26,580 nucleotides of DNA from a virus, in the IMG/VR virus record IMGVR_UViG_3300020473_000108, positions 1 through 26,580 of that record. The stretch is one strand, 5' to 3'. Shown here one piece after another: positions 15,498-26,580 of the stretch. Each line of letters starts with the position of its first letter. Position 1 is the first letter of the stretch. A model generated the notes under the pieces. That model ran no database searches and had not been told where the DNA came from. It worked only from the letters and a program-made list of their open reading frames with translations. The position numbers were made by a program, and so were the translations under genes.

Positions 15498-15597
15498 TCT
15501 GGGGTGGTGAAATTGGTAGACACGGCACGTTGTTTGCGTGTTGCACACTGTGGGCGACTAAGTGTGTATGTTGGTTCGAGTCCAACCCCCAGAGCCA
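15498..15597 (+). tRNA. Unusual class II tRNA: Leu-type body with GUU (Asn) anticodon
   Basis: Full cloverleaf: acceptor TCTGGGG/CCCCAGA, D arm GTG...CAC with AATTGGTAGACAC (a typical tRNA-Leu D arm), anticodon stem GCACG/CGTGT with loop TTGTTTG (anticodon GTT), long variable arm CACAC/GTGTG, T arm GTTGG-TTCGAGT-CCAAC, and encoded CCA. The U1-A72 pair and G73 match tRNA-Asn rather than tRNA-Leu (A73). Position 37 is U rather than the usual purine. I see no other placement of the anticodon stem that gives a Leu anticodon. It sits behind the synthetase-like gene on the same strand. Confidence 0.8.
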
Positions 15598-20011: not shown

Positions 20012-20086
20012 TGGAGTGTCTGACAGGATTTGAACCTGCATGATACGGATTTGCAGTCCGTTGCCTCACCATTCAGCCACAGACAC
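20012..20086 (-). tRNA. tRNA-Cys (GCA)
   Basis: Acceptor GTGTCTG/CAGACAC, U73 and encoded CCA; anticodon stem ACGGA/TCCGT with loop CTGCAAA (anticodon GCA); T arm GCAGG-TTCAAAT-CCTGT. U73 and GCA are the identity elements of tRNA-Cys. Its 5' 21 bases overlap the 41-residue frame upstream. Confidence 0.95.
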
Positions 20087-22456: not shown

Positions 22457-22975
22457 TTACTCCTTTTCTTCAAAATATTTTTCAACATTGGATTTCCAAA
22501 AGTCAATGAAGTTCAACCAGAGATATCTCTCAAGTCCATACGCTTCAATCTCCCAAGGGCTCTTGAAATACTCCATCATGTTATCAATCTTCGTCAACTC
22601 ACCTTTCCAATACATACCTTTGGAACGCATTGACAGATCACCGACAACATACTGTTTTACATGGACCAGTTCATGACCAAGAACCTTGAACATCTCGTTT
22701 GCGTGTTCTTCGTCACTCATCTCACGACCATAGTCATCGATACGAGTTTTGTAAGGATCAATCACCACACGAAACATTCTGGGTTTTGAACGAAACTCAT
22801 TCTCATGAATCATCGCCTCACCATTGTCTGCATGGTGACGAAAGTGAATGTCGATTTCGAGATTCTTGATGACTCTGCTCTTTCCAAGAAGATCACGAAG
22901 AGTCAACTCAGTCATAGCATAGGCACCAAGACGAAATTTCTTGGGAAGATTTTTTCCGTGAACTCTAATTTTCAT
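22457..22975 (-). CDS. SprT-like zinc metallopeptidase
   Basis: 172 residues. The active-site motif H101-E-L-V-H105 lies in a helix and is followed by a PWEIEAYG segment (about 140-147) that may supply the third ligand. The first half has strands IHFRHHADN and FRVVIDPYKTR. This fits short HExxH metallopeptidase domains encoded by T4-like phages. Substrate unknown; a role in protein turnover or DNA-protein crosslink processing is only a guess. First gene after the promoter at 23003-23031. Confidence 0.75.
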   Translation of the reverse strand: MKIRVHGKNLPKKFRLGAYAMTELTLRDLLGKSRVIKNLEIDIHFRHHADNGEAMIHENEFRSKPRMFRVVIDPYKTRIDDYGREMSDEEHANEMFKVLGHELVHVKQYVVGDLSMRSKGMYWKGELTKIDNMMEYFKSPWEIEAYGLERYLWLNFIDFWKSNVEKYFEEKE

Positions 22976-24396: not shown

Positions 24397-24698
24397 TCAT
24401 CCTCATTTGCTAGAATCTCCTGCCAGGTTTGTCGTTCAGGAATCAGATCGGACCATTTACGTAACTTCTCTCTTTTCCTCTCGATTCCTTCAACAATGTC
24501 ATCATGTTTCACCAGACCATGCTCAGTCATCAGTTCAATCATGCACATAACGTCTGCGACTTCACTAGTAAGTTTTTCGATTGTCTCGGCACTTATCTCT
24601 TTGTCAGTATGACGTTTTCTCAACAACTTCGAGCAAACTTGTGTCAGTTCACCACACTCTTCCATCGTTATAATCATCAGTTGTGTTGTTCTATCCAT
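24393..24698 (-). CDS. MazG-like nucleotide pyrophosphohydrolase
   Basis: 101 residues. The metal-binding pattern E13-E14-x2-E17 followed by E46-x2-D49 (TSEVADVMCMIELM) is the MazG/all-alpha NTP pyrophosphohydrolase signature. Such enzymes hydrolyse (d)NTPs to monophosphates, and phage copies have been linked to nucleotide pools or ppGpp. It overlaps the upstream DHODH-like gene by 8 bases, which suggests joint expression of two nucleotide-metabolism proteins. Confidence 0.85.
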   Translation of the reverse strand: MDRTTQLMIITMEECGELTQVCSKLLRKRHTDKEISAETIEKLTSEVADVMCMIELMTEHGLVKHDDIVEGIERKREKLRKWSDLIPERQTWQEILANEDE

Positions 24699-25410
24699 TG
24701 GTTAGTTTCCTCACTAGAGTTCTTGTTTTCAGGGGATTAAAACAAATCGATCCTAAAGATAAATGGTTTGCGCCCGCCGCAAGATAGTCCGACGCTACTC
24801 CAAACGAATCAATACCACCGCCCGCAATTAATTCCAAGCTGTCACCCCATTCGTTCCTTATGAATTCTAAGTGGTTAAGAACGTAGGGGATCAACTCTTT
24901 TCCCGAAAGACCACCCTTGAGAACTGGAAGTGTATTGCAGAGGTGAAGCTGAGTAAACCCCACTTCGTCTATCAGAAAACTTAATTGTTCTGGTGTAATT
25001 AACGGAGAAACTTTGGCGATGCACCACTCACGTTTATTTCCCAGAAAGAAAACGGGCAAGTCATTCCATACTGTTCTTTCTGAAACGTTAGGACATGAAA
25101 GGTTTAGTTCAATTGATTGTTTTTCTGGTATTTTTGATTCTAACTGAATCCAATCGTTTCTTTCTATTCCTGCGATTGAAAGAATTTGATCTGGAAAAGT
25201 TTTTTGAAGACCAACCTCTATTCCTTCATTTGGTAGTCCAAGTGCATTGACCCATCCTTTCAGTTTGAAGTCATAACGTAATGAAGATGCGATTCTCCAT
25301 AATCTCTTCATGACTCCTGCACGATGTTTCAGAGTCCAAGTTCCTGTGACTGAAATTGTATTGTTGAATGAAAGGTAATTACCGAAAGGTGCTGCGATGA
25401 AGATTTTCAT
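24691..25410 (-). CDS. Dihydroorotate dehydrogenase-like flavoprotein
   Basis: 239 residues, shorter than the usual 300 or more. Family motifs are present in order: GLPN (58-61), N103-L-S-C106-P-N108 with the class 1 catalytic-type Cys, K133, CNT (158-160), GGLSG (166-170), AGGGI (196-200) and GANHLSLGSI. These are FMN- and substrate-binding positions of dihydroorotate dehydrogenase, which makes orotate for pyrimidine synthesis. The N-terminal part is reduced: the usual TASG region is replaced by VTGTWTLKHRAGVM. It may therefore be an active short enzyme or a diverged relative. Confidence 0.75.
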   Translation of the reverse strand: MKIFIAAPFGNYLSFNNTISVTGTWTLKHRAGVMKRLWRIASSLRYDFKLKGWVNALGLPNEGIEVGLQKTFPDQILSIAGIERNDWIQLESKIPEKQSIELNLSCPNVSERTVWNDLPVFFLGNKREWCIAKVSPLITPEQLSFLIDEVGFTQLHLCNTLPVLKGGLSGKELIPYVLNHLEFIRNEWGDSLELIAGGGIDSFGVASDYLAAGANHLSLGSICFNPLKTRTLVRKLTNG

Positions 25411-25417
25411 AACTGCC

Positions 25418-25636
25418 TCAAGAGATCATGTTCGTTAGTTCCAGTATGTCATTGTGTTTATCTTTACTCAGATTCAGAGAGTTCAGTAGTGTGAAAAATT
25501 CTTCTCTCTTGCCATTGAGTGCAAGACGTTGTAATAACTGTAGAGATTCATGCTCATTTACGTGTTGTCTTTCGACTTCATTTTTGCCTGGAACGTACCA
25601 GTGATTTGCTCTTTCTTTTTTGCTAATGTTTTCCAT
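25418..25636 (-). CDS. Hypothetical 72-residue protein
   Basis: MENISKKERANHWYVPGKNEVERQHVNEHESLQLLQRLALNGKREEFF, then Leu-rich helix to NMIS. Mostly helical. It ends 7 bases before the DHODH-like start. No family is recognised. Its 5' part overlaps another short frame by 79 bases, so the exact gene structure here is uncertain. Confidence 0.55.
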   Translation of the reverse strand: MENISKKERANHWYVPGKNEVERQHVNEHESLQLLQRLALNGKREEFFTLLNSLNLSKDKHNDILELTNMIS

Positions 25637-25893: not shown

Positions 25894-26159
25894 GATGTAT
25901 GTATATGAAAAGGTTGTAAGTGTTGTGCCATAGGGCGAAAAATTTTCTTGGCAGATGACATGGAAATCTTTTTTGAAAATCCTATAGCAAAATGTCTCTC
26001 AAAAAAGTGATGTATAATCAGCACGATTCCTATATGCACATCCCCATAAGTGCTTTTGCATGCTATGATACACCCCTGCAAGCATCATACCAAAGTGACA
26101 CTTGCAAGAGGCGTACCACAAAGAGAATGTTTTACATATATTTTACAACTTGTGTGAAT
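25894..26159. other. Gene-poor segment without convincing coding content
   Basis: Short frames on both strands here look random in composition and lack ribosome sites. Visible are several small inverted repeats around TGCAAG/CTTGCA and TATGAT/ATCATA (about 26060-26100). Near the right end is an AAAGGAGAT with no start codon in reach. It may be the promoter or flank of the structured segment that follows. Confidence 0.4.
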
Positions 26160-26580
26160 TCTGAAAGGAGATCCCTAATCCACAAAAGCGTGGTGGGTGT
26201 TTGATTATCCTGCCACCTCCCACTGGGCAGTACCATAATTCATAGTGGTGAACCACCAAGACAGTCACCACTCTGTCCGCCTCTTTCGAAGCTCATGAGA
26301 AAAAATCTCATTGAAGAACTGTAATGTGTGTCCGTTTTTTTATTTTGACAGAGTTCTACGGACAAACCCTGTGTGTCTGTCGGGCTTGTTCCCCGACTTG
26401 CATCTCCCCACTTATCGTCTGTGCGCTGTGTGACAACCAGCCGTACTGTCTCCGAATCGTCCTCACTCGTACGCTTAACCAAAGGTCTTATGTGAGCATT
26501 TAGTTTACTCACCCCTCTTCGGAATTCCACAGGTCACCAGCGGGGAAGGTGGGAGTGTCACCCTTCCCTATTGTCATAAG
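26160..26580. ncRNA. Candidate large structured RNA (runs off the window)
   Basis: This stretch is richer in G+C than the rest and holds many perfect inverted repeats: CCAC/GTGG near 26180, CTGCC/GGCAG, CTCTGTC (about 26271) with GACAGAG (about 26348), ATGAGA/TCTCAT around an A-loop, GTCCGT with ACGGAC, GTCGGG/CCCGAC, GTGAG/CTCAC and GGGAAGG/CCTTCCC at the edge. The one longer frame inside (26240-26530 minus) has no ribosome site and unusual composition. The density of helices over 400 bases is that of a large ornate phage RNA. Strand and family are not determined. Confidence 0.5.

Follow-up and report, generated by a model that had tools for sequence, protein, structure and literature searches.

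The window analyzed here, a linear virus record of 26,580 bases, ends on its right-hand side in a stretch for which an initial annotation had claimed a raised G+C content, many perfect stems and no credible gene, and the question raised by this locus is what that stretch encodes. Nearly all genes of the window are on the (−) strand, and their content resembles that of marine T4-type myoviruses; a 407-aa DUF6267 protein, for example, matched 466 phage records, mostly from cyanophages, with Methylophilales phage Melnitz as the best match. The G+C content is 0.446 at 26001–26500 versus mostly 0.32–0.42 in the rest of the window. The only ORFs in the candidate stretch are a 96-aa GTG frame ((−) strand, 26240–26530), which has no match in PHROG or Pfam, and a 70-aa frame ending at 26204, and the description of a G+C-richer region devoid of a credible gene was thus borne out. 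The nearest downstream reading frame (72 aa; 25418–25636, (−) strand), also lacking a PHROG or Pfam family match, lies more than 700 bases past the conserved hairpin P6 described below. Farther away, at 22457–22975 on the (−) strand, the window encodes a 172-aa protein with a metalloprotease-like motif, GHExVHxKQ, which belongs to a PHROG of unknown function; in several relatives, its gene directly follows the RNA.

We propose, with a probability of roughly 85%, that the (−) strand of 26244–26580 encodes most of a large, free-standing non-coding RNA that acts in trans; this estimate covers the identity of the RNA and its free-standing, trans-acting character, while the protein-binding step proposed below lies outside it. 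The assignment of this segment draws on two covariance model matches (R1 and Ocean-VII), a blastn match to a related contig (L045) and a 3′ hairpin common to two relatives (L045 and L071). The stems seen in the window are real, including CTCTGTC at 26271 and GACAGAG at 26347, but their number does not exceed chance as judged by dinucleotide shuffles. Specifically, the stretch contains 9 complementary pairs of 7-mers (6.1 in shuffles; 70 of 300 shuffles as high), 35 pairs of 6-mers (23 in shuffles; 15 of 300 as high) and three 6-bp hairpins (1.2 in shuffles; 41 of 300 as high), and its folding energy is slightly better than that of the shuffles (z = −2.0 on the (+) strand and −2.5 on the (−) strand). 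Given these values, the stems that had prompted the initial annotation would be insufficient on their own, and it is the comparative evidence that suffices.

Searched against Rfam at the gathering threshold, the whole window returned only a tRNA. At a permissive threshold, Ocean-VII (RF03092, 41 nt) matched 26414–26375 on the (−) strand with 23.3 bits (E = 1.1e-4), which is under its gathering score of 53.5 bits; the Ocean-VII signature, a 6-bp stem with the loop GAACAAG followed by AGAC, is nonetheless present at 26397–26375. R1, a covariance model of the 5′ domain built from type I relatives with the window and the Ocean-VII core left out, matched the window once and over the full model length, at 26580–26424 on the (−) strand (E = 2.7e-5). 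Since the R1 and Ocean-VII matches are adjacent and do not overlap, two independent models agree on place, order and strand. (A further model, R2, includes the window, so the 57 bits that it assigns to the window are circular.) Over 207 bases (blastn, 26575–26369; E = 3e-71), the window shows 88% identity to L045, a virus contig that stems from a different metagenome, and homology in the window extends over 26369–26575 plus the hairpin at 26244–26272. The R1 match on the bases adjoining the motif, together with two contigs intermediate between the window and the Ocean-VII group (L048 and L050), shows shared descent with full Ocean-VII members. Judged by homology, the window RNA belongs to a family that occurs in T4-type phages, mainly marine ones, and represents a divergent form of it (“type II”); the (−) strand holds a real structured RNA gene whose 5′ end runs off the contig. 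Beyond the contig end lie the missing 5′ end and, to judge from the relatives, the promoter; neither a promoter nor a terminator is visible in the window itself, and the 3′ end of the RNA is undefined there. The larger conserved unit around the motif implies that the 41-nt Ocean-VII entry is the core of a far larger modular RNA.

We found 27 relatives with approximately four architectures, on T4-type phage contigs and one bacterial metagenome-assembled genome (MAG) contig. The Ocean-VII hairpin pattern returned 19 virus contigs, in 14 of which the motif sits within a much longer conserved stretch preceded by a promoter; the 12 contigs scanned among these 14 score 61–69 bits with Ocean-VII. L021 was added through another pattern and L029, a contig of a Flavobacteriales MAG, by a scan of bacterial genomes, while a pattern common to the family and the window yielded L045 to L050 (n = 6). 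Contigs gathered through the 172-aa protein of the window supplied two further layouts, namely a short form (L057, L058 and L059; R1 E-values of 1e-6 to 3e-4) and two large contigs, L071 and L072 (R2 E-values of 1.5e-12 and 5.6e-12), in which the RNA is located elsewhere than the protein gene. L071 and L072 were chosen by protein and not by RNA and therefore provide independent confirmation. A number of pattern-only matches (L003, L006, L013, L017, L020, L022–L028, L030 and L031) were missed by R1 and taken as chance. Several searches were negative: blastn of the window region, L016, L050 and L059 against 50,697 phage records gave no match, the pattern GGGGAACAAGCCCNNCAGAC found nothing beyond the window, and a protein search with a 239-aa neighbor gave no relatives. 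Among 12 named T4-like phages, R2 detected no member in a run with stricter filters and without a positive control; R1 was also negative in five of these phages (only E-values of 0.56 and 1.78), with five family contigs matched in the same run.

The relatives also supplied the strong covariation that the initial annotation had named as a check on the stems. In an alignment of 13 relatives, the ones whose 5′ domains went into R1, that was not fitted to the model structure (A2), 19 of the 43 consensus pairs carry compensatory changes. A second alignment (A9; 20 sequences, 18 distinct) was fitted to the model structure, which favors that structure; in it, 98.2% of cells form standard pairs, both sides have changed in 20 of the 33 pairs, and the covariation amounts to 0.463, compared with 0.181 ± 0.013 in shuffles and at most 0.098 with partners slid. 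These comparisons strongly support the predicted structure of the 5′ domain. The stretch thus combines a covariation-supported multi-helix structure with the lack of a conserved ORF, as a large structured phage non-coding RNA should, and the proposal of such an RNA is supported by homologues and covariation alike.

All helices named here, P1 to P6, were checked base by base in the window and are on the (−) strand. P1 (26543–26568) is a hairpin of 7 verified pairs (26568–26562/26549–26543) that follows a conserved AATAGGG, and 7 of its 8 pairs changed on both sides among the 18 distinct sequences. It is followed by P2, a long-range helix spanning 26424–26542 with 13 verified pairs in three segments (26542–26539/26427–26424, 26537–26533/26434–26430 and 26532–26529/26449–26446), in which 99–100% of cells are paired and five pairs changed on both sides. 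Facing P2 is a conserved unpaired strand (26435–26444) that reads ACGGCUGGUU in the window and RCNGCYGRU in the alignments of relatives. P3 (26451–26523; 6 verified pairs, 26523–26518/26456–26451) shows changes on both sides at every pair modeled and leads toward the tip into P4 (26492–26512; 7 verified pairs), a hairpin with changes on both sides in 4 of 8 pairs (helix 6 of A9). The 7-nt loop of P4, AACUAAA at 26505–26499, is GACUAAG in other types, giving the family form RACUAAR. The Ocean-VII core (26375–26414; the RF03092 match) contains P5 (26397–26392/26384–26379) with the loop GAACAAG at 26391–26385, for which the family form is RAACARR. P6 (26348–26372; 8 verified pairs, 26372–26365/26355–26348) has a counterpart of different sequence at the same place in relatives. 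The family core thus runs in the order P1, P2 with the RCNGCYGRU strand, the P3–P4 arm, P5 and a variable P6, with lineage-specific additions on its 5′ and 3′ sides. A 3′ hairpin in the window, AGTGGTGA-CTGTCTTGGTGGT-TCACCACT (26244–26272, (−) strand), is shared with L045 and L071, in which the loop GTCTTGGTGG is kept and the stem sequence altered.

The long-range pair CTCTGTC/GACAGAG singled out in the initial annotation is present, but it lies outside the family core, and its strand at 26347 makes up the 3′ arm of P6. The pair is contained in a possible longer helix (26354–26347/26277–26270, spanning 26270–26354 on the (−) strand; P = 0.01 in the window) that may compete with P6. In L045, the same P6 arm pairs with a different 10-bp partner downstream at a similar place (P = 0.001), and the competing helix is absent in most type I members. 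Two further pairings were considered. A pseudoknot between the P1 loop and the strand before P5 had suggestive support among type I members (P about 0.03), found no backing in the window (P = 0.24) and was set aside. Pairing of the P5 loop (GAACAA) with a strand of the P4 stem (UUGUUC) was discarded, since this loop is retained in the window although the P4 strand there reads GUGAGUA.

Next to the structure, the surroundings of the RNA bear on how it is expressed. A near-consensus sigma-70 promoter (TTGACA/TATAAT, at least 11 of 12 bases) lies no more than 400 nt upstream of the core in 21 of 24 loci, which are related sequences and hence not independent counts, whereas such promoters occur at 0.24 per kb overall. 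The RNA of L029 ends in a terminator with a 12-bp stem followed by a T-run, and intrinsic terminators were recognized by reading the sequence in L004, L007, L014, L016, L018, L019, L021 and L050. The predicted transcripts range from ~330 nt (L004) to ~770 nt (L029), and the neighboring genes differ among loci. Taken together, these features predict that the RNA is a free-standing unit in the relatives. Its genes often have tRNA genes within a few kilobases. Bases 358 to 434 of L045, after the core, are 94% identical to bases −602 to −526 of L050, before the core; such blocks recurring on either side of the core across phages indicate either a modular make-up of the surroundings or the presence of several RNA genes there. 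The block GTGATTAAGAGATGGTYACGG...TAGCAGTRACACGC, which precedes the core in L071 and L050 and follows it in L045, is possibly a second RNA family. Upstream of the RNA in L002, L009 and L012, near-consensus sigma-70 promoters follow one another in arrays of two or three, separated by hardly any coding sequence or none, which suggests islands of several small RNA genes.

How might such an RNA work? Its function is probably that of an early, trans-acting structural RNA. The host RNA polymerase would transcribe it early and alone, starting at a strong promoter of the sigma-70 type and stopping at the RNA’s own terminator, and the RNA would then fold and act in trans. The likely working surface consists of the RCNGCYGRU strand and both seven-base hairpin loops, which are near-constant while the surrounding stems change freely. 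Our first choice, at somewhat less than even odds, is a scaffold or decoy role in which this surface would bind a protein of the host or the phage. The second choice, possible but doubtful, is that the RNA assembles with itself into an RNA-only homo-oligomer or nanocage, by analogy with GOLLD and ROOL and outside both families. GOLLD and ROOL form cages, and one half of GOLLD is conserved and the other less so (PMC12286853); the RNA described here shares the same habit of a large phage RNA with conserved and variable parts, often a few kilobases from tRNA genes. The conserved CGGCYG strand, moreover, is self-complementary in most members, but this property is lost in L029 (CAGCCG) and L057 (CUGCCG), and the conserved core, at about 200 nt, does not reach the size of GOLLD or ROOL. 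Dimerization through CGGCCG was set aside, the sequence not being kept in those two members.

Base pairing to other RNAs comes third. An antisense regulator acting on host or phage messages through its unpaired loops would account for the invariance of the exposed loops and for the sigma-70-type promoter; we regard it as unlikely, as the elaborate conserved helices exceed the needs of an antisense RNA. A riboswitch-like or attenuator leader acting in cis on the downstream gene is still less probable. In L007, L014, L016, L018, L021 and L059, the same 172-aa gene comes right after the RNA, and an ORF starts soon after it in L004, but an intrinsic terminator separates RNA and 172-aa gene in those of the loci that are type I, and the downstream genes differ elsewhere; the window has more than 700 nt between the RNA and the nearest ORF and ~3.6 kb between the RNA and the 172-aa gene. 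No single class of downstream gene was constantly associated with the RNA within one transcript. A small protein gene such as the open 96-aa frame is very improbable, since, beyond the lack of a family match, gaps of 2, 1 and 1 bases relative to L045 break any reading frame and the changes keep pairing and not codons; a frame running through the region, which would have contradicted an RNA, was accordingly not found, and a coding identity of the stretch is in practice refuted. Chance hairpins in a G+C-richer intergenic stretch, to which the near-shuffle stem counts of the window alone would be compatible, have a negligible probability given the covarying homologues and the direct homology to L045.

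The preferred reading, a large trans-acting structural RNA, can be compared with known systems. Ocean-VII has the same P5 hairpin with the loop GAACAAG and the ensuing AGAC, and type I relatives exceed its gathering score (55–69 bits), whereas the window, L045, L048 and L050 are under that score or not listed. The Rfam model, however, spans only the 3′ core of the transcript, while the unit of the window family is ~330–770 nt long and includes five or more additional conserved helices. GOLLD, likewise a large structured phage non-coding RNA with a conserved core and variable parts, and ROOL, another large structured phage RNA, are often found near tRNA genes and tRNA islands, respectively (PMC12286853). 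Membership in either, as initially suggested, finds no backing: neither family matched the window or its relatives in Rfam, even at permissive thresholds, the core of the window family is smaller than GOLLD with other conserved sequences, and ROOL differs in sequence and layout. Scans of the window and relatives with other Rfam families gave no match for this RNA besides Ocean-VII. The lytic phage ICP1 of an aquatic bacterium produces an abundant non-coding transcript of ~800 nt (PMC7567579), which is similarly long and ORF-less, a likeness of description; ICP1, in contrast, is without tRNAs.

The literature that we searched, which leaves out most subscription journals and the original Ocean-VII report, contained no mention of Ocean-VII or RF03092, and its titles and abstracts gave no description of the larger RNA, which is likely to be new. 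On balance, we favor the view that these RNAs form a superfamily not described before, in which large modular RNAs of phages share a single core, combine it with interchangeable 5′ and 3′ domains and adopt four or more architectures; a 41-nt piece is all of it that has been catalogued. Its members may build RNA-only assemblies or phage ribonucleoproteins and would then add to GOLLD and ROOL a third system based on large RNAs, present in uncultured marine phages of the T4 type. What was an orphan motif of 41 bases thereby turns into an entire RNA gene whose ends, structure and hosts (T4-type phages) are defined and which can be synthesized, probed and imaged. These findings suggest that tailed phages make recurrent use of large structured RNAs, of which GOLLD and ROOL are not the only cases.

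Other genes of the window also drew our attention. The (−) strand encodes a protein resembling a shortened dihydroorotate dehydrogenase (24691–25410) and a tRNA-Cys (20012–20086). Among the few (+)-strand genes, in the segment 14558–15597, is one for a 292-aa class II tRNA-synthetase-like protein, which belongs to Pfam tRNA-synt_2 and has asnS/aspS as its best NCBIfam match, far under the cut-off. After it, in the same segment at 15498–15597, follows a tRNA with a long variable arm and an anticodon not assignable by ARAGORN, and a phage synthetase-like gene next to such an odd tRNA deserves a look.
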